20,380 nt of DNA, from positions 1 to 20,380 of the IMG/VR virus record IMGVR_UViG_3300037961_000324. The stretch is one strand, 5' to 3'. The first letter of the stretch is position 1, and each line of letters opens with the position of its first letter. Under the pieces are notes generated by a model. It ran no database searches and was not told where the DNA came from. It saw only the letters and a list, made by a program, of their open reading frames with translations. Position numbers and translations under genes: made by a program. This DNA comes from a virus. Positions 2,367 through 15,547 of the stretch are shown here, one piece after another.

Positions 2367-3797
2367 ATGGCTAAAGTCTGGAAAAAGCTCCAACGTGCAG
2401 ACAGTGACTATACAGGTAATGTTACTGGAAAAGTTGGAGGAACAGATGCTTCTGATGTAAAAGACGGAGCAGTCGCAGGAACTGCGGCAAAAACAATAAC
2501 CGATGCGGCATTTGATAGTAATACAAAACTAAAGACAACAAATGCGGCAGATGGTTTATTAAACTCACAAGTTGCAATAGCTAAAGATTCAAGTGGAAAC
2601 ATATCTTTAAGCAATGCGGCAAGTGGAAGTATATCATTAGACAATAGTGATGTAGGTTTAGGTAATGTTACTAACCACGAGCAAATTAAATCTGATGGTA
2701 GTAACGCACCTGACGCATTAAAAAATGACCAAATCACACTAACAGCAAGTGGTGGAACAGTAACACTTAATAATGCAGGTAGTGGTAGTATCACTAAATC
2801 CTCTATTGGATTAAGCAGTGTAGAAAACAAAAGTCAAGCTGATATATTAGGTGGAACATTAACCGGTGGAGTAAGTAGTTCAGCAACTATTGACGGGACA
2901 GCCGCTTCAACAGTAAAATCTGGTGCCGCAGATGGTGCAACTGCTAAAGGAATCACTGACGATGCTTTTACAGATGACAGTGGAACTCCAAAGCTAAATG
3001 TAGCTAATGCTAACAATTCGCTAAGGAATGACCAAATATCTTTATCAGCTTCTGGTGGTACAGTAACATTATCTGGAGCATCATCTTCTAATAATACTTT
3101 TACTAAGTCTTCTATAGGTTTATCAAGCGTTGAGAATAAAAGTCAAGCTGATATTCTTTCAGGTGATTTAACTGGTAAAGTTGGAGATACTGCTGTAGCA
3201 ACTATTGAAACAGGAGCAAGTAATGGTACAGCCGCTAAAGCAATAACTGATGATACTTTTGAAGTAGTCTCTGGTGTAAATACAATAAAAGACACTAGGG
3301 CACCAGCTTCATTAAAAAATTCAAGTATAAGTTTATCGGCTTCTAGTGGGACTGTAACAGTATCTGGAATTTCAAGTAGTAATAACACTTTTGGTAAGTC
3401 AGAAGTTGGCTTAGGCTCAGTAGTAAACCAAAAAGTAGCAGTAGTAAGTGGTAAAATTCAGTTAGATGATGTTGACCAAACTATTGATGCTGATAAAATT
3501 GGTGGTAAAACAAGAGCAGAAACTGAAGCCGCCGCAGTTACAACAGCTACAAGTAACATTGTAGGTACATCACCGGGTGTATTAGATACGCTTACTAAAA
3601 TATCAACATCACTTGGTAATCAATCTAATGCTTATAGTTCATTAACTACAAGTATAGGAACTAAAGCTAAAGCACCAATGACGCTAACAGCAGAGGATGT
3701 TGATGGTGACTCTTCATTTGATAATGACCCAGCTAATGAGGTTGTTGGTCAGATAGGTGTAGTAGGTGGGCAACAATACGTTGTTGTAGACGAATAG
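2367..3797 (+). CDS. tail fibre protein with tandem beta repeats (fibre A)
   Basis: A 476-residue protein with ATG at 2367 preceded by AGGAG at 2355-2359. Residues 1-23 are nearly identical to the start of the second fibre at 4756 and probably form the common virion anchor. Residues 16-360 are built from repeats: a unit beginning T-G-x-V, an A-K-x-I-T-D-D/A-A-F segment, an L-x-N-x-x-I-S-L-S-A-S-G-G-T-V-T strand pair and a V-G-L-G-N-V-x-N style ending. The V-G-L-G-N-V-x-N motif is a recognised phage tail-fibre repeat element. Residues 395-436 include G-T-S-P-G-V-L-D-T-L and L-T-T-S-I, also typical of fibre shafts. The last 40 residues are acidic and may be a tip or trimerisation region. There is no obvious lyase or receptor-binding enzyme motif. 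The likely role is host recognition or a fibre shaft at the tail. Confidence 0.85.
   Translation: MAKVWKKLQRADSDYTGNVTGKVGGTDASDVKDGAVAGTAAKTITDAAFDSNTKLKTTNAADGLLNSQVAIAKDSSGNISLSNAASGSISLDNSDVGLGNVTNHEQIKSDGSNAPDALKNDQITLTASGGTVTLNNAGSGSITKSSIGLSSVENKSQADILGGTLTGGVSSSATIDGTAASTVKSGAADGATAKGITDDAFTDDSGTPKLNVANANNSLRNDQISLSASGGTVTLSGASSSNNTFTKSSIGLSSVENKSQADILSGDLTGKVGDTAVATIETGASNGTAAKAITDDTFEVVSGVNTIKDTRAPASLKNSSISLSASSGTVTVSGISSSNNTFGKSEVGLGSVVNQKVAVVSGKIQLDDVDQTIDADKIGGKTRAETEAAAVTTATSNIVGTSPGVLDTLTKISTSLGNQSNAYSSLTTSIGTKAKAPMTLTAEDVDGDSSFDNDPANEVVGQIGVVGGQQYVVVDE
2412..3446 (+). repeat. tandem protein-level repeats in fibre A
   Basis: Units seen at about 2412-2675, a partial unit at 2676-2849, 2850-3158 and 3159-3446. 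Full units are about 88-103 codons. Each carries the T-G-x-V opening, an A-K-x-I-T-D-x-x-F segment and a G-L-x-S/N-V-x-N ending. The second half of the unit is the best conserved: K-S-S-I-G-L-S-S-V-E-N-K-S-Q-A-D-I-L occurs twice. Nucleotide identity is lower than protein identity. Confidence 0.75.
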
Positions 3798-4591: not shown

Positions 4592-4763
4592 ATGTACAAC
4601 TCAAGAACTAGAAGCAGTTTGTACTTTATTATCTGGAGTGGAAGTTAAAGTTGCAGAAGGCAAATGGGTATTTGATATGCACACTAAATTTAAAAAAGCA
4701 TTTGAAGAGTCGGCAAAAGCTGACCCCGAATATAGTTTAGTAGAAGAGGAAGAAGTTGGCTAA
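4563..4763 (+). CDS. small hypothetical protein upstream of fibre B
   Basis: A 66-residue protein. The start at 4563 is well supported by AAGGAGG at 4552-4558, five bases upstream. The sequence has a basic N-terminus (S-K-K-K-L-K), a middle with C-T-T-Q-E-L-E-A-V-C-T-L-L, and an acidic tail ending E-E-E-E-V-G. No family is recognised. Its last codons overlap the TTG start of fibre B by 8 nt, and its GAGGAAGAAG codons double as the fibre's ribosome site. Confidence 0.6.
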   Translation: MSKKKLKIVKCTTQELEAVCTLLSGVEVKVAEGKWVFDMHTKFKKAFEESAKADPEYSLVEEEEVG

Positions 4764-6372
4764 AGTTTGGAAAAAACTACAGAGAGCTGATTCAGATTTT
4801 ACTGGTAATGTAACTGGTAAAGTAAACAATGTAGATGTTAGTGGTGTATATACTACTAGCAATAAACCTACTAAATCAGATGTAGGTCTTGGTAACGTAG
4901 TAAACGAAGACCCAGCAACATTAAAAGCGACAATGTCGCTAGATAATGTAACTAATGAATCTAAGGCTACTATGTTTGCTAATCCTACATTTACAGGTAC
5001 TGCAACTGGTTTAAGTAAAGCAAGTGTTGGCTTAGGTAACGTAGACAACTCTCTATTTTCATCAGATGGTAAATTTAAAGGTGGCATTACTAAGTCAGAT
5101 GGCACAGCTATATTTGACCCATCAGATGGTAACTTTACAGGTAAAATTGCAGGTAGTACAGCTAGTGATGTAAAATCTAAAGCAGAAGATGCTAAAGATG
5201 CTATTGATGGTAATAAATCAATTACTATGGTAGGTGGTTCATTAAGTATTGGTACACCAAGTAGTGGTGTATATCCATTTAGTGTAGATACTAGTGGTAA
5301 TTTAAAAATTAAAAATGATGAGTTTCAGGCATTAGCAGATGGTACGGTTAACTGTCAAGATACCAATGGTGATTCTAAAATTGTACTAGTAGGTGATAGT
5401 ACAGGAACTGCTGAGTGTGAAGTACAAGGTGCTAATCCAACATTTGACTTAGGTGGTTCTAGTCCACTTGGTACATCAACACTTTTTCTTAGAAGAGGTA
5501 CTACAGGTAACCAAGCAAGAATATTATTTCAAACAGGTACTACAAATAAATTTGGTATAGGAGTAAGTCATACTGTAGATAATGACCAGTTCTGGATACA
5601 TAATGGAAATGGTTATTCTGGTAGTTCTCCACACCCTGAAAGAGTATTATCATTTAATCCAGATGGTAAGACAGGTTTTTTTGCTAATAGTAAAACTGTT
5701 GCAGGTTTTACATTTGGTAGTGACGGCACCAATAAACACGTTTACATTAAAGATGGTGGATTGGGTATTGGAACAACAAGTATACAAGATGGTGAACTAA
5801 ATGTAAGTGGTAATGCTACTGTAAATGGAGATTTACAAGTAGTAACAGATGCTACTTTTGAAGGGGATTTACAAGTTGATGGTTCTACTACAGGTATTAG
5901 TTATAGTGATTTAAGTAGTAAACCTACTATACCAGCCGCAAATACACTTTCTTATAGTATGAGTACTATTGATGGTAATGGTTATATATGGGTAATGCCT
6001 ACACAATTTATGCCTAATGATGATAATTCATATTTTAACGCCGCTATTGTAGACAATGGTGCACAAGCAAGAGTTATGACATCTAGTTTAGAGCTATATG
6101 CAAACGTACCTATACCTACTGGTTATAAGGTTACTCATTTTAGATTAAATGGTACAGCTAGTGTAAATGTAGCAGTCTATTATAGTGACGTTACAACATC
6201 TACTGCAACATCTGCACAAGTAACATCTTTATACACTAACGCAGATAACTCAGTTAATCCATCAAGTGGTATAGCGGCTACTAGTGATGGTAGATATATG
6301 ATATTAAAATGGCAACCAACTTCAACATCACATCGTTTATACGGTGCTAGACTAACAATAACAAAAGTATAA
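4756..6372 (+). CDS. tail fibre protein with shared anchor (fibre B)
   Basis: A 538-residue protein. The start is TTG at 4756, chosen because the first residues then match the ATG-initiated fibre A ([14 protein letters not shown]) and a GAGGAAG ribosome site precedes it. Residues 38-100 carry three V-G-L-G-N-V-x-N or L-D-N-V-T-N fibre motifs. Residues 105-390 are beta-repeat shaft, with segments such as G-G-L-G-I-G-T-T (334-341) and a pair of G-D-L-Q-V strands (358-374). Residues 395-538 form a separate Ser/Thr/Tyr-rich beta domain that looks like a receptor-binding head: [26 protein letters not shown], ending L-T-I-T-K-V. The C-terminal domain is unrelated to that of fibre A. Likely role: adsorption. 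It ends in a TAATG overlap with the collagen-like fibre. Confidence 0.85.
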
Positions 6373-8615
6373 TGGCAAAAGAAAAATTATCAGACGCAAA
6401 TCTAATACAGTTAACAGCTAAACCTACTAGTTTAAAAACTAAAGCTAGGTTACCACACTTATTTGATTCTAATGATGTAGAACAAGACTCAACACAAGAC
6501 CCTATTACACACAATGTAATGGATGCTGTTGAAGCTCTTAGAACAGATTTTAATAAACTATATGATGATGTACACCACGTGTATAAAATGTTATATAATG
6601 CTTTTGGTACAGCAGAATCTGAAAATTGGGATAGTAGAGGTCCAACAGGTCCTCAAGGACCAGCAGGTCCTACAGGTCCTCAAGGTGGTACTGGTCCCAC
6701 AGGTTTAACAGGTTTAACCGGACCAACAGGTCCAGCCGGTCCTAAAGGTAGCACGGGTGCAGATGGTCCTGCCGGACCTACAGGTCCTACGGGTCCTGCC
6801 GGTGTTGCAGGTGCTAAAGGTAGTCCCGGTGCAACAGGAGGTACAGGTCCTACAGGTGCTCCCGGTCCTACAGGTCCTACCGGACCCACTGGAAGTACTG
6901 GTCCTACAGGTCCTACTGGTAGTACAGGTCCCGAAGGTTTAGTATGGAGAAACGATTGGTCTAGTTCTACAAGTTATTCTGTAGATGATGCAGTTTATAA
7001 CAAAGGTAGTTCTTGGATATGTGTAAAAGCTAATAGTAATTCAGAACCTAGTAGTAGTAATAATAGTTGGGCAGAATTAAGTGTTAAAGGTGATACCGGT
7101 CCAACTGGACCTACAGGTCCCACTGGTCCGACTGGTGGTATAGGTCCTACTGGACCAACAGGAGCCAAAGGTCCTACTGGTTTAACTGGTAGTGCTGGTC
7201 CTACCGGTCCAACAGGGGCAAAAGGTGATGATGGAGACACTGGTCCCACGGGTCCAACTGGTCCTACGGGTCCACAAGGTTTAAAAGGAAACACAGGTCC
7301 AACTGGTCCCACTGGTCCAGCAGGAGCTGATTCTACTGTTGCAGGACCAACCGGTCCTACTGGTGCACAAGGACCCAAAGGTAATACTGGTCCAACCGGA
7401 GCTAAAGGTCCGACAGGTCCAACGGGTCCAACAGGTCCAGCTTTTACATATGCAAATTTTACATCATCTCAGTTAGCAGGATTAACTGGTCCTACGGGAC
7501 CAACCGGTCCGACAGGACCGACAGGACCGACAGGTCCACAAGGATTAAAGGGTAATACAGGTAATACTGGACCTACTGGTGCGGCAAGTACAGTTGCTGG
7601 TCCAACAGGACCTACTGGTCCAAAAGGAGATAAAGGCGATACAGGTGCTAAAGGTCCTACTGGTCTAACGGGACCAACTGGACCAACTGGTGCTGATAGT
7701 ACAGTAGCCGGACCGACTGGTCCAACTGGACCGACAGGACCTGCTGGACCTAAAGGCTCAACTGGTAGTACAGGACCTACAGGACCTACTGGACCTGCAT
7801 TCGTTTACGCAAATTTTACAGGACCTCAACTAGCAGGTCTTACAGGTCCAACTGGACCTACCGGACCTCAAGGTCCACAAGGAGTTGCAGGACCTACAGG
7901 ACCTGCCGGTGCTAAAGGAACTACTGGCTCTACTGGACCAGCAGGACCTAAAGGAGCTACTGGAGGAACTGGACCTACTGGACCGACTGGACCCACCGGT
8001 CCTACCGGACCTGCATTTGTATATGCAAACTTTACTGGTCCACAATTAGCTGGGCTAACAGGACCTACGGGTCCTACAGGACCAACGGGACCTACGGGAC
8101 CCACTGGACCTAAAGGTGACAAAGGAAATACTGGTAACACAGGTGCAACAGGACCTGCAAGTACGGTAGCTGGACCTCCGGGACCAGCAGGACCTACTGG
8201 ACCTACGGGACCTAAAGGAGATACAGGACCTACTGGAGCAAAAGGTAGTACGGGTGCAACTGGACCGGCAGGTGGAACAGGACCAGCAGGTGCAGACGGA
8301 GATGATGGTGGACCCGGACCTACAGGACCAGCAGGACCAGCAGGACCGAAAGGTGACACTGGTGCTACCGGACCAGCCGGACCAAAAGGAAGTACTGGAA
8401 GTACAGGTGGCACCGGACCAGCAGGACCTCCGGGACCTCCCGGACCAACTGGTAGCACAGGTTCAGCAGGGTCAGCAGGACCTCCCGGACCACCGGGACC
8501 AACTGGACCAGCAGGTAGTGGTAGCTTTACTGGTAAGCAATCATTTCTTATCAGTACAAAAGGTGCTACAAAGTCAGTAGAAGTAACTAACGGATTAGTA
8601 ACGGGGTTTAAATAA
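6372..8615 (+). CDS. collagen-like (Gly-X-Y) fibre protein
   Basis: A 747-residue protein. Residues 1-89 are a non-collagen head with a likely trimer-forming helix (49-77). From residue 90 to about 716 it is mostly Gly-Pro-Thr type triplets, roughly 170 in all, broken by inserts. Residues 189-239 form a [11 protein letters not shown] module ending S-W-A-E-L, of the aromatic 'W..sttY..gd.V...g..y.c' type seen in carbohydrate-binding-like tail modules. There are four S-T-V-A-G interruptions (about 319, 404, 441, 595) and three Y-A-N-F-T-x-x-Q-L-A-G-L modules (357, 476, 548). The last resembles the F-x-Y-x-D-F-T-x-E-Q-L-x-x-L linker known before collagen stretches in phage tail proteins. The C-terminus (717-747) is a short non-collagen cap. 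Threonine in the Y position is common in bacterial and phage collagen-like proteins lacking hydroxyproline. It follows two fibre genes, so a side-fibre or capsid-fibre role is likely. Confidence 0.9.
7440..7601 (+). repeat. YANFT-to-STVAG block, copy 1
   Basis: Encodes residues 357-410: a Y-A-N-F-T module, a run of GPT triplets, a G-N-T-G-N-T-G stretch and A-S-T-V-A-G. The same 54-residue order with the same spacing recurs at 8013-8174. Confidence 0.7.
8013..8174 (+). repeat. YANFT-to-STVAG block, copy 2
   Basis: Encodes residues 548-601, parallel to 7440-7601 at the protein level, but most wobble positions differ (for example GGT-CCT in one copy against GGA-CCT in the other). Confidence 0.7.
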
Positions 8616-8788
8616 TGTTAAAATCAGAATTAGAAGCGTGGAAAAAAAATGCAGAAGATAAATGCAAAGAAGCCCACGACTTATTAGATGGCAAAAACTT
8701 TGGTGATATAAAACTAGAAGATATGCAAAGCATTTGGAAAAAAATGAGGGAAATCTTAGGATTAGAAATACCTAAAGAGGATGAGTAA
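8615..8788 (+). CDS. small helical hypothetical protein (57 aa)
   Basis: ATG at 8615 sits in the TAATG overlap with the collagen-like gene and the frame ends with TAA at 8786-8788. The product is 57 residues, highly charged (Lys/Glu/Asp) and probably helical throughout: [12 protein letters not shown] at the start, [12 protein letters not shown] in the middle, P-K-E-D-E at the end. No membrane span is present. It overlaps the next gene by 8 nt and its last codons hold that gene's AAGAGG ribosome site, which supports it being a real translated link in the operon. Family unknown. Confidence 0.65.
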
Positions 8789-9068
8789 ACTTGCGAGGTC
8801 GTACAAGATGGATAGGATTGATGATAACTTCAGCATCCATCTTAACATTAAGTGGCTCATTCAGTTGCTTATGCTTACAGGTACACTTGTTTATGCGTAC
8901 GTTGGAATTACAACGCAACTTAGTAATATTACAAGAGAACTTGAACTATTATCAGAAAGAGTTATTAAATTAGAGGCGAAGCACGAGGCAGAAATTAAAG
9001 AGATTGAGAAATGGTATAAACAATCACTTGAACTAAATCCTCTTAAATGGGGACGTAAAAATAAATAA
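8781..9068 (+). CDS. single-span membrane protein, holin- or spanin-like
   Basis: A 95-residue protein. A short basic N-terminus is followed by one hydrophobic segment (about residues 24-44: W-L-I-Q-L-L-M-L-T-G-T-L-V-Y-A-Y-V-G), then a Glu/Leu/Lys-rich coiled coil (46-80) and a basic tail. The topology, one N-terminal span with a coiled-coil stalk, fits either a small holin-type membrane protein or an inner-membrane spanin. It lies at the head of the run of small genes that ends with the endolysin. No lipobox partner (outer-membrane spanin) was recognised nearby. The start at 8781 follows AAGAGG closely; an in-frame ATG at 8808 would give a protein nine residues shorter with the same span. 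Function inferred from topology and position only. Confidence 0.7.
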   Translation: MSKLARSYKMDRIDDNFSIHLNIKWLIQLLMLTGTLVYAYVGITTQLSNITRELELLSERVIKLEAKHEAEIKEIEKWYKQSLELNPLKWGRKNK

Positions 9069-9079
9069 TCCGGGGAAAT

Positions 9080-9397
9080 ATGGACTTTTTAGCAGTATAT
9101 TCAGAAGCAGGAATGATTGGCGTAGTCGGAGCTATGTTTGTCTATATGGTTTACAGTATGAACAAACGAGCTAGTGAACAAGCTCAAGCATTGGAAAATT
9201 TAAAAATAGAAAATAAGGGTCAAAGCGAAACACTAGAAAATATGGAAGGAATGATTATCAAGCTAATAGGAAGATGGAATCAGTCTGATGATAAACTTGA
9301 TAGGAAGTTTGATGCTCTTACCAAAGAGATAAATGATTTAGATAATCAAGTGTCTCGTATAGATGGCTCATTAAGTAGAATAAACGGGAAACACTAA
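9080..9397 (+). CDS. holin-like protein (BhlA/UviB-type topology)
   Basis: A 105-residue protein with GGGGA at 9072-9076 before its ATG. Residues 8-27 are one hydrophobic span (G-M-I-G-V-V-G-A-M-F-V-Y-M-V-Y), followed directly by K-R-A-S-E-Q and a long coiled coil (30-100) with heptad-like Leu/Ile/Met. This short lumenal N-terminus, single span and charged coiled tail match the general build of BhlA/UviB-type holin-like proteins. No sequence-level match can be verified here. It overlaps the next gene by one base (TAATG). It is the best single holin candidate of the three membrane proteins in this block, but a structural role is not excluded. Confidence 0.7.
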   Translation: MDFLAVYSEAGMIGVVGAMFVYMVYSMNKRASEQAQALENLKIENKGQSETLENMEGMIIKLIGRWNQSDDKLDRKFDALTKEINDLDNQVSRIDGSLSRINGKH

Positions 9398-9705
9398 TGG
9401 CATCACCAGCGTGGCAACGAAAAGAAGGTAAGTCTCCTAGTGGAGGCTTAAATGCAAAAGGAAGAGCGAGTTATAAGGGTGGCACTCTTAAAGCTCCAGT
9501 AACACAAAAAAATCCAAAGGGTAAAGCTAAAGCTAGACGTAAGTCATTCTGTGCAAGAATGTGTGGAATGAAAAGGAGACTTACTAGTGCTAAGACAGCT
9601 AGAGACCCAAACTCAAGAATTAACAAAGCATTACGTAAATGGAACTGTAATTGTGGTTCTAGGAAAAAAGCTAGTGCTGTAAGTAAGGCAAGGAAGTTAA
9701 GATGA
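9397..9705 (+). CDS. DUF6321-type basic phage protein
   Basis: A 102-residue, strongly basic protein (many Lys and Arg, few acidic residues). It opens with S-P-A-W-Q-R-K-E-G-K-S-P-S-G-G-L-N-A-K-G-R-A-S-Y, then T-L-K-A-P-V-T-Q-K-N-P-K-G-K-A-K-A-R-R-K-S-F-C-A-R-M-C-G-M. These blocks are the hallmark of the DUF6321 family, common in marine phages and of unknown function. Cys52, Cys56, Cys84 and Cys86 could bind a metal, though their spacing is not a standard zinc finger. The charge suggests nucleic-acid contact, perhaps as a packaged protein. It lies between two holin-like genes and overlaps the next gene as ATGA. Family assignment is fairly firm from remembered motifs; function is unknown. Confidence 0.85.
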   Translation: MASPAWQRKEGKSPSGGLNAKGRASYKGGTLKAPVTQKNPKGKAKARRKSFCARMCGMKRRLTSAKTARDPNSRINKALRKWNCNCGSRKKASAVSKARKLR

Positions 9706-9872
9706 CAAGAGCAGAGGCATTAAAGAAACTAAAAGGCTATAAAGGTGGTCTTATAAGTTGGGTTTTTGGAGGTAAAAGATACTATGGTAAGAAGAAGGGT
9801 GAGACAGCTACTCATATTCTTGCTACAACTCATAACGGAAAAACCAAACGAATACCCAAAAAGAAAAAGTAA
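9702..9872 (+). CDS. small basic hypothetical protein (56 aa)
   Basis: ATG at 9702 overlaps the TGA of the DUF6321-type gene (ATGA), and the frame closes with TAA at 9870-9872. The product is 56 residues and very basic: L-K-K-L-K-G-Y-K-G-G-L, then F-G-G-K-R-Y-Y-G-K-K-K-G-E and a P-K-K-K-K end. No known domain is recognised. The tight overlaps on both sides, and its pairing with another basic protein, support a real gene. It could contact nucleic acid. Confidence 0.65.
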   Translation: MTRAEALKKLKGYKGGLISWVFGGKRYYGKKKGETATHILATTHNGKTKRIPKKKK

Positions 9873-10021
9873 TGGATAGTTTAAAAGTTAGTGGCATAAG
9901 TACTAGTCTAGGTATGGTATACTATACTGATATTATATCTGGTGTTCTTATGTGTATAATGTTTGCAATCAATATATACTACTTAATATTAAAAATCAAA
10001 AACCAAAGTAAGGAGTCGTAA
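9872..10021 (+). CDS. short single-span membrane protein (49 aa), holin candidate
   Basis: ATG at 9872 lies in a TAATG overlap and TAA ends at 10021, again overlapping the next ATG. The 49-residue product has a polar N-terminus (D-S-L-K-V-S-G-I-S-T-S), one hydrophobic span of about 22 residues (20-41: D-I-I-S-G-V-L-M-C-I-M-F-A-I-N-I-Y-Y-L-I-L) and a short basic tail (K-I-K-N-Q-S-K). Short proteins of this layout close to the endolysin in marine phages are often called putative holins. It could act as a holin, an antiholin or a minor membrane protein. Confidence 0.65.
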   Translation: MDSLKVSGISTSLGMVYYTDIISGVLMCIMFAINIYYLILKIKNQSKES

Positions 10022-10245
10022 TGGACATAAAAGCAATGATGTTAGACTTAGCTGAGAAACAAGCTGATGCTATGAAAGATAAAATGATAGATGAATTAGG
10101 AAGCGAAGATATGGCTTCTAAAATTGCATCTGCCATTAATAAGAAAATTGACATACCATTTGTATCTGAAGAAAAAGAACAGATATTTTTTGAAAAGTGT
10201 GTTGATGTAGTAACTGACATTATCGAAGGAATGTTTAAAAAGTAA
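10021..10245 (+). CDS. small helical hypothetical protein before endolysin
   Basis: A 74-residue protein with AAGGAG at 10009-10014 before its ATG. It looks all-helical and amphipathic, with M-M-L-D-L-A-E-K-Q-A-D-A-M-K-D-K-M at the start and V-V-T-D-I-I-E-G-M-F-K-K at the end. There is no membrane span and no recognised family. Its stop is immediately followed by the endolysin ATG (TAAATG), so the two are probably translationally coupled. A lysis-regulation role is only a guess from position. Confidence 0.7.
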   Translation: MDIKAMMLDLAEKQADAMKDKMIDELGSEDMASKIASAINKKIDIPFVSEEKEQIFFEKCVDVVTDIIEGMFKK

Positions 10246-10722
10246 ATGGAATTTAAGGACGCAGTCAAAATTATCCTTAAACACGAAGGGGGGTATGTTA
10301 ATGACCCTGTTGACCCGGGAGGGGAAACTAATATGGGCATTAGTAAAAGAGCATATCCCTATCTTAATATTAAGGAGTTAACTAAGAAAGATGCTGAGGA
10401 CATATACTTCAAAGATTATTGGTTAAAAGCTAAAGTAAAAAAGATACCGGAAGAACTACGAATGATATATTTTGATATGGTAGTTAATATGGGTAAGTCG
10501 AGAGCTGTAAAGATACTGCAAACGGCAATAAGTGCTAAAGGCGTAAAGACCACAGTTGATGGAGGCATAGGTCCACAGACAATTAGTAATGCTTTAAAGT
10601 CTGGTTTAGAACCGGATAGACTTAGAAGTTACAGAGTTAAATACTATGCAGACTTAATAAATAGAAAACCTAGTTTAGAAAAGTATTGGTTTGGATGGTA
10701 TCGAAGGGCGTTAGAGGTATAG
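10246..10722 (+). CDS. endolysin, GH108-type lysozyme with PG_binding_3 domain
   Basis: A 158-residue muralytic enzyme. Residues 5-90 carry the family signature: L-K-H-E-G-G-Y-V-N-D-P-V-D-P-G-G-E-T-N-M-G-I (11-32), in which Glu14 of the H-E-G-G-Y motif is the expected catalytic acid. Residues 88-155 match the PG_binding_3 half: A-V-K-I-L-Q-T-A-I, then V-D-G-G-I-G-P-Q-T (104-112) and R-L-R-S-Y-R-V-K-Y-Y. Length is normal for GH108 phage endolysins, about 160-180 residues. Such enzymes hydrolyse the glycan strands of Gram-negative murein. No signal peptide or SAR segment is seen, so it should depend on a holin, and candidates lie just upstream. The start follows the previous stop directly. Confidence 0.93.
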   Translation: MEFKDAVKIILKHEGGYVNDPVDPGGETNMGISKRAYPYLNIKELTKKDAEDIYFKDYWLKAKVKKIPEELRMIYFDMVVNMGKSRAVKILQTAISAKGVKTTVDGGIGPQTISNALKSGLEPDRLRSYRVKYYADLINRKPSLEKYWFGWYRRALEV

Positions 10723-10724
10723 AT

Positions 10725-10985
10725 ATGTTCAACAACCTTAACATTAAGGGCACTAAGAAGTGGCGTAAGAAGCCTGACGAGTGTGCTCATTGTAAGAGTA
10801 AGAATGTTACTGGTATAGAAATATTATGTGCGTATGAAGGACCCTTATTTTGGGAATGTGATGACTGTGGTGAACGAATGCTACGCTTTACAAAACAGAC
10901 TACTGTAAAACATCTAAGAAAAACTGAAGATTTATTTATAGACCTTGAGGGGATGGAGAACATATGTCAACAACCACCAAATTAG
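10725..10985 (+). CDS. zinc-ribbon protein (86 aa)
   Basis: Two starts are possible in this frame: 10686, overlapping the endolysin by 37 nt, and ATG at 10725, which lies just after the endolysin stop with AGAGG at 10713-10717. I chose 10725, giving 86 residues. Cys20-x2-Cys23 and Cys45-x2-Cys48 form a clear C-x2-C...C-x2-C zinc ribbon, with the aromatic stretch G-P-L-F-W-E-C between them. The rest is basic at the N-terminus (K-K-W-R-K-K-P-D-E) and acidic at the C-terminus. Its partner is unknown; a nucleic-acid or protein-binding adaptor is plausible. Its end overlaps the phosphoesterase by 22 nt, and the phosphoesterase ribosome site lies inside it, so the two genes are probably co-expressed. 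Confidence 0.8.
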   Translation: MFNNLNIKGTKKWRKKPDECAHCKSKNVTGIEILCAYEGPLFWECDDCGERMLRFTKQTTVKHLRKTEDLFIDLEGMENICQQPPN

Positions 10986-11758
10986 ATAAAGGTGTAGTTA
11001 AACGTGGAATCGTTACACCAGATAAACATTTTCCGTTACACGACAAAAAAGCTATCGATGTGGTCTGCCAAGCGATTCGCATCATTAAGCCAGACTTTTA
11101 CGTTGACCTCGGAGATAGTGGAGAATTTAGTTCAGTATCACACTGGCAATGGAAGAAACGCAAACGTCCTCCGTTGGAGTATCAGTTGCCGAGAGTATAT
11201 GAAGACATCGGAGCTGTTAATGAAGGTATGGATATTATTGATGAAGCCCTTGATAAGGTACGATGTAAAGAAAAACATTTCTGCGAAGGAAACCACGAAC
11301 AATGGCTTAACTCTTTTGCTGAAGAAAACCCCTATCTACAAGGTCTTACGGTCCCAGACGCACTCTTACTTAAACAACGTGGTTTTGAATACTACCCAAA
11401 CGGAAAGTACTTAAAGCTAGGTAGGTTATGGTATTATCACGGGAACCATTACGGAGGAGTTGCACACGCAAGGAACCACTTATTAAAACTGGGATGCAAT
11501 GTAATCTATGGACATCATCACGATTTACAAATGCACAGCGTAACACATATAGACGGACCTAAGAGTGCTTGGAGTTTAGGATGCTTAAAGGATATGTCAG
11601 ATGAAGCTAATGGATGGCTTGGTAATCGTAAAACAAATTGGGCACACGCTTTTGCTGTTGTTGATTATTTTGATGACGGAAACTTTACGGTGCATATCGT
11701 CAATATTATTGACGGGAGAACTTCCTTATGGGGGAAAGAATTAAATGCCAAAGTCTAA
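10964..11758 (+). CDS. calcineurin-like metallophosphoesterase
   Basis: A 264-residue enzyme of the calcineurin-like phosphoesterase superfamily. The metal-binding motifs are in order: D20-x-H22 (P-D-K-H), G-D at 50-51 (Y-V-D-L-G-D), G-N-H-E at 109-112, H159 (Y-Y-H-G-N-H) and G-H-H-H at 183-186. This is the full two-metal centre, so it should be active. The family covers phosphatases, nucleases and phosphodiesterases, so the substrate cannot be told. A conserved aromatic insert S-H-W-Q-W-K-K-R-K-R follows the second motif. Codon use is unlike the neighbours: seven of eleven Arg codons are CGN, against one of nine in the first gene of the window. It overlaps the zinc-ribbon gene and the nozzle head gene, so it is part of the late operon despite this. 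Confidence 0.9.
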   Translation: MSTTTKLDKGVVKRGIVTPDKHFPLHDKKAIDVVCQAIRIIKPDFYVDLGDSGEFSSVSHWQWKKRKRPPLEYQLPRVYEDIGAVNEGMDIIDEALDKVRCKEKHFCEGNHEQWLNSFAEENPYLQGLTVPDALLLKQRGFEYYPNGKYLKLGRLWYYHGNHYGGVAHARNHLLKLGCNVIYGHHHDLQMHSVTHIDGPKSAWSLGCLKDMSDEANGWLGNRKTNWAHAFAVVDYFDDGNFTVHIVNIIDGRTSLWGKELNAKV

Positions 11759-12014
11759 CTTTGAAATACCATCCTTTAATAGAGGAATAATGTCTAACCC
11801 AGAAGATGAAAGAGACATTCCTACAGATGCCGCATCTTATTCTTTAAATATAGACCCTACTGTTAATGGTCAATTAGCAGGTATAACAAATGATAAAGCA
11901 TTAAAACTTACAGGTTTTGATAATAATGTTGTGTTAACTGATTGGGACCAAGGTTCTAGACATCAAACTCAAAATCCTGCACAAGAGTATCAAGCTCCAA
12001 CACCGAGTGCTTAA
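11745..12014 (+). CDS. nozzle/DNA-stabilisation protein, N-terminal piece
   Basis: An 89-residue protein overlapping the phosphoesterase by 14 nt. It begins with F-E-I-P-S-F-N-R-G-I-M-S-N-P-E-D-E-R-D-I-P and A-A-S-Y-S-L-N-I-D-P-T-V-N-G-Q-L. This is the typical opening of podoviral tail nozzle or packaged-DNA stabilisation proteins (T7 gp12-like, P22 gp10-like): a short 'GGI...p' strand, an 'a...N.d...g.l..r' segment and then the body. Here the chain ends in a Gln/Pro-rich tail after only 89 residues, and two bases later the 1176-residue body begins in another frame. It is probably a split version of one protein, with the two products assembling together. A separate small virion protein is the alternative. 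Confidence 0.65.
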   Translation: MPKSNFEIPSFNRGIMSNPEDERDIPTDAASYSLNIDPTVNGQLAGITNDKALKLTGFDNNVVLTDWDQGSRHQTQNPAQEYQAPTPSA

Positions 12015-12016
12015 TT

Positions 12017-15000
12017 ATGGCAATAGATACTAGCACTCCAAACAATAAACAGTACGCTACATTAACAGGTACATTTACAGGAACAGTAGATACTATATTC
12101 TGGATTAGAATGAACAATGATAATGGTACAGTTTTTAAATGGAAAACTAAGCAAGGCAGTGGTGCTTGGAGTTCTTTAACTACAGTAAGTGACCATTCTG
12201 CACAAACTGCTAAGTTATTAACCTTAGGTATGTCAGTTACATTTACTAGGTCTAACTTAGGAACTTATTTAGCTGGTGATAAGTGGGAGTTTACTGTGTC
12301 TCCAGATTACAGACTAGCACCTAACGATACTACTACTTCGTTTGATAGGTTAATACCTATGGATAAAAGTGACGAACAACATTTAATTGCAATAAACTCT
12401 AAGTCAGGAGAGACTGCATACATAGAAAACTATAATACAGATAGCCCTACAATAATACAAACACAGCCAATACCTGCAAAAGCAACTGGTTACGTTGATT
12501 ACGTAGTCAATAATAAATTAGCTTATGTAGGCATAGGTAAAGAAAAAAGCTCACAAGTTGTTGGCTTTGTTAAGAATAATCAATGGGGTGTTTCTGATGC
12601 TGAAGAATTTGAAAGAATACAAGAAAAAAGTTATCAAACAGTATCTGTATCTTCTGTAAGTCACAAAGTATTTACTGACTCAGTAATGTTACAAGGTGGA
12701 GCTGGTACTATTAACGATGCTTATCTTTCTGTTGGTTTTGATTACGAAGATAATGAGTCTGCTTTTTATATTTACAACAACAATACTAACAAGGTATATA
12801 AAAGAGACCTTCCCGGAACTCCTTTAGCTATACGTATATGCCCTTTTTTACAAACAAGTGGTAAGATAAATGGAGTAGCTATATTAATGGAGCCTACTAA
12901 TGGTGGTTATATAAATTTTATGCAAACTTACAGCATCAGTGATGATGGCACAGTAACTACGTTTGAAAAATCATTTAACCTTGAAGCACCAAGTGGGAAT
13001 ACTTCTTTAAACAAATTTAGTGACTTCTTAATGATTCCAAGAGTTAATAACATAAATAGCAACTCTACAATATTTGATTTAATATTATCAGCAGGAGAAA
13101 CAACAGATGAAAGTAGCCTTAGAGATGGTTACTTATTTAAGGTAGAAAACTTTAAATCTTATAATGAATCAGAGTTTTCTGGTAGTTCTGGTGGTAACAT
13201 AGAGGCTGGTGATTATATACCTATGTCTCCTAAGAATAGTTATAGTGGTGAAGATAAAGCCGCTAATATGTGGATAGAAATACGTAGTGATGATGGTAGT
13301 CAACAAGAAGTAGGTTGTACTAATCATCCTACTATGATGCAAAGGGGCAATCTAATACATTTAGGTTATGATTCTAATGGTCAAAATCCTTATATAGGAG
13401 TAACAGTTAAATTACAGCCTATATTTAAATATGAAGACTCTGACCAAGATGAATATGGTGGCTATGAAATAGCTATTATAAAACCTTTATGGTGGGATGG
13501 TTATAAGTATTGGAAACTTAAATGGGTTACTTATGCAGTGCCGTTAGACAGTAGTGGTAGAAATGCTTGTGAAATGATGGCACATATGAAAATGAGTGGT
13601 ACTACAACAACAAGTATTAGTAGTTCAAACTTACAACAGAGTAATGTACCTGCACCTGCTGACGCACCTTTGTTTGCTTCTAGTGCTGGTAAAAGTGTTA
13701 ATGATAGAGCTATGGTTTATTCAGAAGCAGATGGACAAAGAATAGGTTTTTACTATATACAAAGAGAAGAAAACGTAGCAAAGTTAAAAACTATAAATGA
13801 TATTGAAACTAAAAGTGGTCATTTAAGTATGTTTCCAAACACAGGAGGTAGCACTATATACAATCAATTTGCTAACTATAGTTCTGGAACAACAGATACA
13901 GCTCCTGCAAATATTCTTAGTACAAATTTACCTAGCACAGAAGATGAAAGACCTTATGTTTTATCAGATAGACAAGTGCAAATGACAGGTATGACTAGTG
14001 CTTCTGTACCAGCGGCAAACAATTCTAATCATATAACAAGAAGAGATGATGAGGGTGACGAGTATATAGAACAACAAATTGGCTCAGGCAGTGCAGGTTC
14101 TAATGAGTTATCTGGTAATGCACCTTGGTTTAATATAAGCACTATTACTACTAATACTAACAAAGACTGGTTAGGAGATGCTAGTACTAGAAAAGCATTT
14201 TACAAATGTTCTTTATTGTATGATGGATTTCAAGAGTCAGCTTTAATAAGTGTAATAGGGGCATATGATACAGGCTCTGCAATAACTGATGGTTTACAAG
14301 TACCTATAGAAATAGATGAAGAAGCTGTAGTAGGTGAACAAAAAAAGATATCAAGAAGAATTACATCTGTTATTTTATATAGAGCAGATGACTCAACACA
14401 AACATCTTTAGAACCTGAAGGTTTGTATAGGTTTGTAGAAGAAGTTTCTATAGACAAGTTTTATTTACAAAGTGGTAAATATAAATTTACTGTACAAGAC
14501 GATGGCAGTAGAGGTGCATCTTACGAAGCATTAAACGGTATACCAGAAACACTAGGTTCTCTAGGTGTAGACTATACAGTAAACGCATCTATAAATGGAT
14601 ATATGTTTATAGGTAATTGTAATCATCCTGAGTTTGCTGATGGAGAAAATGTGTTATTTAGAAGTGAGCCCGGTAAGTATTCTATATTTAACTGGTCACA
14701 GAACTTTATACAATTAGACTTTATACCTACTGCGTTGGCAAGTTTTGTTGGTAAGCTGTATGTGTTTGGTAAGAATCAGATGTGTATCGTTAATCCAGAA
14801 ACACTTATTATAGAAGAAAACATATCTGGTATAGGTTGCTTAGGACCTAAAGCGTTAAAGACTACATCTAGTGGTTTATTCTGGTTAGACTACAACAACT
14901 TTTACCAGTCATCACCAAAGATAGACAAGATAGGTACTACCATAAAGAAACAGCCACAATGTGGTTGGGATATGATTACTAATGCAGAGAAAGATTTAGC

Positions 15001-15547
15001 CGTTGTAGGTTACGATGCAACAAGACAATGCGTGTTGTTCTTTTTTCATAAAACAGACAGCAGTGGTACAGATAAAAGATGCTGGTCTTACTACATACCA
15101 CAAAAAAGATGGGACCTTTGGGAAACAACTTACAAAATATTTGACACAGTAGATGGTGACGATGGATACCCTATACTACTAGCAGAAGAAGGTAGAATAA
15201 TTAAAATGGGTGCTGGTACATCTAGAAGAAACTGGCAATGGAACAGTAAAAAACTTACACTAGGCACTGACACTAACTATAAAAAGGTTAGGGTTGTAAA
15301 GCTAGATGCTAGTAGTAGACCTAGTACAAGTATTAAGTATCAAACAAACGATGAGTCAACGTATCAAAGTGGTACAGATGTATCTAATAACTATGGCTCT
15401 AGTTGGACAGGTAATGCTATAAAAGTTGCATCAACTTATTCTAAACTAAGGTGGGTAAGGTTAAAAGCAGAAGGTACTAATGGCAGTACAACAAATGTTA
15501 AAGGTCATTCTATAGGAATAGTATACAAACCAAAGAAACCTAAATGA
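12017..15547 (+). CDS. large tail nozzle / DNA-stabilisation-like protein
   Basis: A 1176-residue protein, larger than typical nozzle proteins (500-800). Residues 9-95 form a beta-sandwich-like domain (T-L-T-G-T-F-T-G-T-V-D-T, F-K-W-K-T, V-T-F-T-R, L-A-G-D-K-W-E-F-T-V) of a kind inserted in phage and flagellar proteins. The rest is long and beta-rich, with repeated Y-I-x-N/V segments that suit a propeller-like hub. The C-terminal third (from about 850) carries the best marks: I-N-G-Y-M-F-I-G-N, F-V-G-K-L-Y-V-F-G-K-N, I-G-C-L-G-P-K-A-L, G-L-F-W-L-D-Y-N-N-F-Y, and R-C-W-S-Y-Y-I-P. This resembles gp10/gp12-type proteins, which cap the tail and hold DNA in the head. It overlaps the next gene as ATGA. 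Assignment is moderate: motif order fits, but no direct match was checked. Confidence 0.8.
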   Translation: MAIDTSTPNNKQYATLTGTFTGTVDTIFWIRMNNDNGTVFKWKTKQGSGAWSSLTTVSDHSAQTAKLLTLGMSVTFTRSNLGTYLAGDKWEFTVSPDYRLAPNDTTTSFDRLIPMDKSDEQHLIAINSKSGETAYIENYNTDSPTIIQTQPIPAKATGYVDYVVNNKLAYVGIGKEKSSQVVGFVKNNQWGVSDAEEFERIQEKSYQTVSVSSVSHKVFTDSVMLQGGAGTINDAYLSVGFDYEDNESAFYIYNNNTNKVYKRDLPGTPLAIRICPFLQTSGKINGVAILMEPTNGGYINFMQTYSISDDGTVTTFEKSFNLEAPSGNTSLNKFSDFLMIPRVNNINSNSTIFDLILSAGETTDESSLRDGYLFKVENFKSYNESEFSGSSGGNIEAGDYIPMSPKNSYSGEDKAANMWIEIRSDDGSQQEVGCTNHPTMMQRGNLIHLGYDSNGQNPYIGVTVKLQPIFKYEDSDQDEYGGYEIAIIKPLWWDGYKYWKLKWVTYAVPLDSSGRNACEMMAHMKMSGTTTTSISSSNLQQSNVPAPADAPLFASSAGKSVNDRAMVYSEADGQRIGFYYIQREENVAKLKTINDIETKSGHLSMFPNTGGSTIYNQFANYSSGTTDTAPANILSTNLPSTEDERPYVLSDRQVQMTGMTSASVPAANNSNHITRRDDEGDEYIEQQIGSGSAGSNELSGNAPWFNISTITTNTNKDWLGDASTRKAFYKCSLLYDGFQESALISVIGAYDTGSAITDGLQVPIEIDEEAVVGEQKKISRRITSVILYRADDSTQTSLEPEGLYRFVEEVSIDKFYLQSGKYKFTVQDDGSRGASYEALNGIPETLGSLGVDYTVNASINGYMFIGNCNHPEFADGENVLFRSEPGKYSIFNWSQNFIQLDFIPTALASFVGKLYVFGKNQMCIVNPETLIIEENISGIGCLGPKALKTTSSGLFWLDYNNFYQSSPKIDKIGTTIKKQPQCGWDMITNAEKDLAVVGYDATRQCVLFFFHKTDSSGTDKRCWSYYIPQKRWDLWETTYKIFDTVDGDDGYPILLAEEGRIIKMGAGTSRRNWQWNSKKLTLGTDTNYKKVRVVKLDASSRPSTSIKYQTNDESTYQSGTDVSNNYGSSWTGNAIKVASTYSKLRWVRLKAEGTNGSTTNVKGHSIGIVYKPKKPK

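Follow-up and report, generated by a model that had tools for sequence, protein, structure and literature searches.

Gp48 of mycobacteriophage A10ZJ24 is a studied relative of the enzyme described here, and both belong to PHROG 221. The sections of its published account cited here describe a phosphodiesterase activity that is lost in D10G, the degradation of linear, plasmid, and mycobacterial DNA in Mn2+ buffer by Gp48 but not by mutant proteins, and a toxicity upon expression that is gone in D10G, D41V, and H175D; D10, D41, and H175 were essential (Li et al. 2025, PMC12287305). The same sections report early expression and a counter-defense role, with Gp48 needed on one host and not on another, and state that two other Cluster A homologues failed to replace gp48 in its phage (PMC12287305). 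Gp48-type genes lie beside primase and endonuclease VII genes, and no zinc ribbon is annotated alongside gp48.

Other described proteins are comparable in different ways. AS11 gp30, also in PHROG 221, joins a DNA-binding-type module to the enzyme: a helix-turn-helix precedes the enzyme domain (record annotation; Pfam 4.6e-5, below curated cut-offs), and the gene is in a replication-gene setting, beside endonuclease VII and 5'-3' exonuclease. T5 A1 is a 556-aa pre-early gene product annotated for host DNA degradation, a process for which it is needed according to the cited part of the literature (PMC13250531). In OM43 phage MEP301, the portion of the description used here puts a metallophosphoesterase gene adjoining or near the endolysin gene (ORF11, ORF12; PMC8024684), and in phage HSd1 a metallophosphoesterase gene is near the endolysin gene, beside DNA polymerase and exonuclease genes. 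The enzyme class has a published function. The new part is a zinc-ribbon partner, whose role is predicted; the pair was undescribed in the mainly open-access literature searched for phage metallophosphoesterase and zinc ribbon, where the single match concerned Bifidobacterium.

The window (the whole stretch of DNA analyzed, 20,380 bases) is an IMG/VR virus record in which the pair sits between a GH108 endolysin gene and a tail gene block (Table 1). It comes from a marine-type phage, with the pair among structural and lysis genes. An earlier note, made from the window's sequence, had described a zinc-ribbon gene that overlaps a phosphoesterase gene by 22 nt and contains its ribosome site. The overlap proved exact at 10964-10985, and the ribosome site was confirmed as GGAG at 10955-10958.

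Table 1. Features of the zinc-ribbon/metallophosphoesterase locus in window coordinates
Feature	Position	Strand	Basis
Endolysin (glycosyl hydrolase 108 + peptidoglycan-binding domain), direct upstream neighbor of zinc ribbon	10246..10722	+	Domain matches
Shine-Dalgarno-like AGAGG, 7 nt before ATG 10725, inside endolysin gene end	10713..10717	+	Sequence read
Zinc-ribbon protein, 86 aa, ATG 10725 (alternative in-frame ATG 10695)	10725..10985	+	ORF, alignment
Zinc ribbon first CxxC (C20, C23)	10782..10793	+	Invariant in 37 sequences
Zinc ribbon second CxxC (C45, C48, in WECxxC)	10857..10868	+	Invariant in 37 sequences
GGAG Shine-Dalgarno of metallophosphoesterase, 5 nt before ATG 10964, within zinc-ribbon gene	10955..10958	+	Sequence read
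22-nt gene overlap, coding the zinc ribbon's C-terminal PN-stop and the enzyme's TKL	10964..10985	+	Alignments
Calcineurin-like metallophosphoesterase, 264 aa, PHROG 221	10964..11758	+	Alignment, model, profile match
Enzyme motif DxH (D20, H22)	11021..11029	+	Invariant in 29 sequences
Enzyme motif GD (D51)	11114..11116	+	Invariant in 29 sequences
Enzyme motif GNH (N110, H111)	11291..11296	+	Invariant in 29 sequences
Enzyme metal-ligand histidine H159	11438..11440	+	Invariant in 29 sequences
Enzyme motif GHxH (H184, H186)	11513..11521	+	Invariant in 29 sequences

The metal ligands of calcineurin-like metallophosphoesterases lie in the motifs DxH, GD, GNH, H, and GHxH. All of these motifs are present in the enzyme family, as judged from an alignment of the window's enzyme with 28 relatives at <93% identity, drawn from 77 uncut loci and down to 64% identical to the window. 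The eight ligand residues were invariant in all 29 rows, bearing out the proposal that the enzyme keeps its expected metal ligands. The AlphaFold model (pLDDT 80.9, pTM 0.85) has an alpha/beta sandwich fold. Its VIA-align comparison gave LpxH (Z 13.5), PolD DP1 (12.6), and Mre11 (12.5, rmsd 3.1 over 179 residues), and because these lie within about 1 Z unit, the fold does not pick a substrate. Mre11/SbcD chains made up 25 of the 30 Foldseek PDB matches at E <=0.001 (many of them repeat entries, with E down to 2.4e-5 and low TM-scores of 0.38-0.47). However, the nuclease core fold of Mre11/SbcD is common also to LpxH and PolD, the window's enzyme has 264 aa against more than 300 in the chains listed, and a search of PDB sequences with the enzyme profile found no homology to Mre11/SbcD at E up to 1. 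LpxH has a GNRD variant of motif III. In the enzyme, GNH is invariant in the 29 sequences and followed by E or D. An LpxH-type role is suggested by a fold tie only and seems unlikely, as motif III would differ.

Sequence, in the form of PHROG 221, decides better than fold comparison what the enzyme is. PHROG 221 was matched by 29/29 enzyme members (best 3.9e-29), including the window's at E 5.3e-28 over residues 8-257, and Pfam PF00149 matched one of the 29 at E up to 1, the window's enzyme not being that one. The family is large, with at least 596 confirmed stretches in viral contigs in one scan, and identity to named phage relatives is only about 25%. Gp48 itself matches PHROG 221 at 2.4e-124 and scores 35.8 bits against the window-family profile (E 3.8e-12, set of 14 sequences). 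It has 255 aa compared with 264, and its D10, D41, and H175 align with D20, D51, and H184 of the window. The differences are that motif I of Gp48 is DxQ and that of the window's enzyme DxH, and that Gp48 is expressed early (PMC12287305, in the sections cited), whereas the window's gene is among structural genes. The DxH/DxQ difference, the failed homologue replacement, and the different gene setting all argue against a simple transfer of function from Gp48.

A further link leads to T5 A1 through phrog_1745, which was matched by 10 of the 29 enzyme members at E <=0.01 (best 3.9e-6; the window's own enzyme was not among them) and by T5 A1 at 8.5e-244. Stretches reading NHD and GHTH can be found in T5 A1, but with our own enzyme-family profiles it did not score above shuffled sequences, and it differs in its length and pre-early expression. 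From this family evidence, the enzyme is probably a DNase. The note had left the pair as a small nucleic-acid or nucleotide processing unit of unknown use. The published DNase and counter-defense role of Gp48, which shares the PHROG (PMC12287305, sections cited), narrows that use, and Gp48 together with the PHROG of T5 A1 favors the nucleic-acid part of the proposal; the idea of a unit is weakened, since the enzyme does not need this zinc ribbon. A virion location for the PaP1 relative, called a "constituent protein" in its record, was considered and rejected, as the cited part of PMC3652863 does not name that relative. As a separate observation, the enzyme frame in L154 (6194-7018) and L155 (3680-4504) has no canonical start upstream of the first motif; by eye, ACG stands at the position of the relatives' ATG.

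The zinc-ribbon protein was aligned with 36 relatives, down to 40% identical to the window. It ends in PN in all 37 rows. In the model (pLDDT 77.5, pTM 0.62), strands at residues 28-32, 40-45, and 51-53 accompany the two CxxC knuckles, giving a predicted zinc-ribbon fold that would bind zinc. Its start is uncertain, since ATG 10695, inside the endolysin gene, is also in frame, and the codon matching M1 is ATA, ATC, or ATT in several relatives. We found no strong relative of this protein. It had no match among named phages at E up to 0.1, its best match among solved relatives was L24e at a weak E of 0.014, and its Pfam matches were weak and mixed. The top VIA-align rows, ZifS (8yoz) and the zinc domain of antitoxin MqsA (3hi2), tied at Z 3.2, which is in the noise range per the tool's own note. 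For cellular relatives, neither the zinc-ribbon nor the enzyme profile confirmed any in genome contigs, in a scan that relies on short peptide patterns.

One group of relatives stands apart in its start region. In L054, L055, L056, L057, L058, L059, L061, and L144 (8/8; L059 and L061 are nearly identical), none of the codons ATG, GTG, TTG, and CTG occurs in the zinc-ribbon frame ahead of the first CxxC. Where the upstream ORF stops, exactly 26 codons ahead of the first Cys, there is a conserved ATC, and AGGAG or GGGAG precedes it by 7-9 nt in seven of the eight. Judging from these sequences, a conserved AUC start codon is possible in this group.

We surveyed the pairing from both sides. Among the best 80 of 105 loci confirmed with the zinc-ribbon query, the enzyme follows in 78. 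One of the two misses, L138, has its contig edge right after the zinc ribbon; in the other, L124 (3173-3732), the zinc ribbon is intact, the enzyme is missing, and the gene runs straight into the tail gene, although a chimeric contig is possible. The enzyme is therefore absent at one of the 79 zinc-ribbon loci uncut at that point, and the genes are not usually apart in other phages, the outcome that the earlier note would have counted against its proposal. The enzyme query, represented by the best 80 of 465 confirmed loci, found the zinc ribbon at 59, none at 18, and 3 cut off upstream. We pooled these two queries with two more distant enzyme queries into 252 loci with 161 distinct enzymes, 155 of which were scored after setting aside 6 without upstream sequence; the samples were picked for their similarity, in one case to the zinc ribbon itself, rather than at random. 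This zinc ribbon accompanied 71 of the 155, a different two-CxxC ORF one (L069), and neither the other 83, such that 84 enzymes lack this zinc ribbon. The pairing is thus real but asymmetric: the zinc ribbon occurs almost only with the enzyme, and the enzyme often occurs without this zinc ribbon. The L124 orphan and the numerous ribbon-less enzymes show that there is no strict dependence in either direction.

Further checks describe the ribbon-less cases. No zinc-ribbon copy was found elsewhere in three ribbon-less contigs, and at the same loci other long ORFs were directly preceded by a two-CxxC ORF in 2 of 502 cases. In a tree of 41 rows (midpoint root, long outgroup branches) that bears on the order of gain and loss of the zinc ribbon, ribbon-less rows mix with the ribbon-bearing L080 and L158. 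In L069, the different two-CxxC ORF (54-56 aa), just upstream of 1164, ends at the enzyme start, and the usual zinc ribbon is absent.

The junction between the two genes is nearly constant. In the window and 59 public viral contig loci (60 pairs, 50 distinct DNA sequences), the overlap measures 22 nt in 58 pairs and 25 nt in 2, and a Shine-Dalgarno match of at least 4 nt precedes the enzyme start in 59, a count without shuffle control. The overlap letters serve both proteins, and the TKL that they encode in the enzyme is frequent in rows with the zinc ribbon but missing from the aligned rows that lack it. In more distant pairs (L146 with its kin, L154, L155, and L158), both the zinc-ribbon ends and the overlap lengths differ. 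A programmed frameshift fusion was rejected because the relative frame varies (22- and 25-nt overlaps share one frame, and those of 26 and 38 nt another) and visual inspection revealed no slippery site. At the junction, the structured-RNA z-score was 0.42, giving no sign of a structured RNA. In three comparisons between relatives, dN/dS was 0.09-0.20 for the zinc ribbon and 0.07-0.11 for the enzyme; between the window and L009 it was about 0.09 and 0.11, and against L012-L014 the zinc-ribbon synonymous sites were saturated. The two genes form an overlapping pair within the structural region that is conserved and under selection.

We used longer contigs to place the pair in its genome. G001 (43.5 kb) and G005 (54.4 kb) both carry it, and among their printed ORFs of at least 100 aa, the structural block that includes the pair is on one strand and a replication-type block on the other. 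Family checks on these blocks covered four proteins: a Sak4-like protein and a primase/helicase in G001, and a terminase and a portal protein in G005. In the ribbon-less G010, the enzyme likewise lies within the structural block. Because of this placement, late expression of the pair is likely, and the layout of G001 and G005 fits the note's assignment to a late operon. A promoter belonging to the pair itself was rejected, as 8500-12500 contained 8 promoter-like sites against 13.5 expected. The endolysin gene is the direct neighbor in many relatives but not all, with a 58- to 98-aa ORF upstream in others.

Our preferred explanation, to which we assign a probability of roughly 45%, is a late-made two-metal PHROG 221 phosphodiesterase, most likely DNA-cutting, with a dedicated zinc-ribbon accessory that directs where or when it cuts. 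The enzyme would be made alongside virion and lysis proteins rather than early. The zinc ribbon would be translated just ahead of it, its gene ending inside the enzyme's start region, and would most likely bind nucleic acid, the enzyme, or both, so directing where or when the enzyme cuts. We infer that the two work together, by physical contact or otherwise in an aiming role, from their co-occurrence, their overlap, and the analogy to AS11 gp30. The zinc ribbon may be the trans counterpart of the helix-turn-helix fused to the enzyme in at least one relative, although in AS11 gp30 the module is fused in cis and has another fold, and the setting is one of replication genes. The cell use may be late host-DNA clearance, pre-packaging trimming of replicated DNA, or counter-defense. 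Since Gp48 acts on DNA and helps its phage overcome one host (PMC12287305, sections cited), a conserved small partner would be a handle on the aiming or restraint of such a nuclease, and with two short genes it is easy to test.

Aiming and braking both fit the zinc-ribbon data, and we have weighed a brake as an unlikely alternative in which an antitoxin-like inhibitor, made first, keeps a toxic DNase inactive until lysis or packaging. A small protein is indeed encoded first, overlaps a potentially toxic enzyme, and is nearly always found with it; the L124 orphan resembles an antitoxin retained after toxin loss; and both top VIA-align rows, ZifS and the MqsA zinc domain, would suit the idea, although the tool's own note places a Z of 3.2 in the noise. 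In toxin-antitoxin modules, the toxin is seldom without its antitoxin. Here, the 84 of 155 distinct enzymes without this zinc ribbon depart from that pattern, and it would be odd for a brake to be translated at a low level, as might happen in the possible AUC-start group, even though Gp48 is toxic when expressed alone (PMC12287305, sections cited). A combined form, in which the small protein binds the nascent enzyme and holds or aims it, such that a chromosome-shredding nuclease is made without harm among virion genes and released at packaging or lysis, strikes us as quite unlikely; one phage group's output of the pair would then be further set by the gate's conserved AUC start. If this is true, the phage would encode a regulator for a self-endangering DNase produced late in infection.

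The remaining alternatives loosen either the partnership or the choice of substrate. Two unrelated late proteins could overlap through genome compaction, with the zinc ribbon having some other target, such as RNA polymerase or the ribosome. Overlaps also occur between other neighboring genes of the window (e.g. 11745-11758 and 1078-1081), L124 has an intact zinc ribbon without an enzyme, and zinc ribbons of RNA polymerase and of translation initiation are among the weak structural matches. Yet the pair stays together while its upstream neighbor changes between the endolysin and the small ORF, and the co-occurrence of 78/80 from the zinc-ribbon side also makes this explanation doubtful. Quite improbable, in our judgment, is an enzyme acting on a small or cyclic nucleotide in counter-defense or nucleotide recycling. 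In its favor, the superfamily is a broad one, and comparing folds puts LpxH, a non-nuclease, level with nucleases; the links to Gp48 and the PHROG of T5 A1, the helix-turn-helix of AS11 gp30, and the dominance of Mre11/SbcD in the Foldseek list all oppose it.

Several other features of the window were recorded. By eye, window 11745-12014 and 12017-15547 seem to equal one 1169-aa ORF in L154 (7023-10532), suggesting that a tail gene is split in the group to which the window belongs; the 1176-aa tail protein had no named-phage match at E up to 1e-5. The proteins of 2367-3797 and 4756-6372 share a nearly identical N-terminus and are perhaps duplicated tail-fiber adaptors, and 9397-9705 encodes a 102-aa protein whose matches are to the C-terminal portions of several larger PHROGs without an assigned function. 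A 747-aa collagen-like protein rich in GPT repeats is encoded at 6372-8615, where GC is 0.505 compared with 0.375 for the window. Third-position GC in 8615-11758 is 0.23-0.35, higher than in most of the window, and the enzyme has the lowest synonymous divergence (pS 0.286) of 26 genes compared with L160. Constraint, recombination, or codon bias may account for this low divergence and the GC block.
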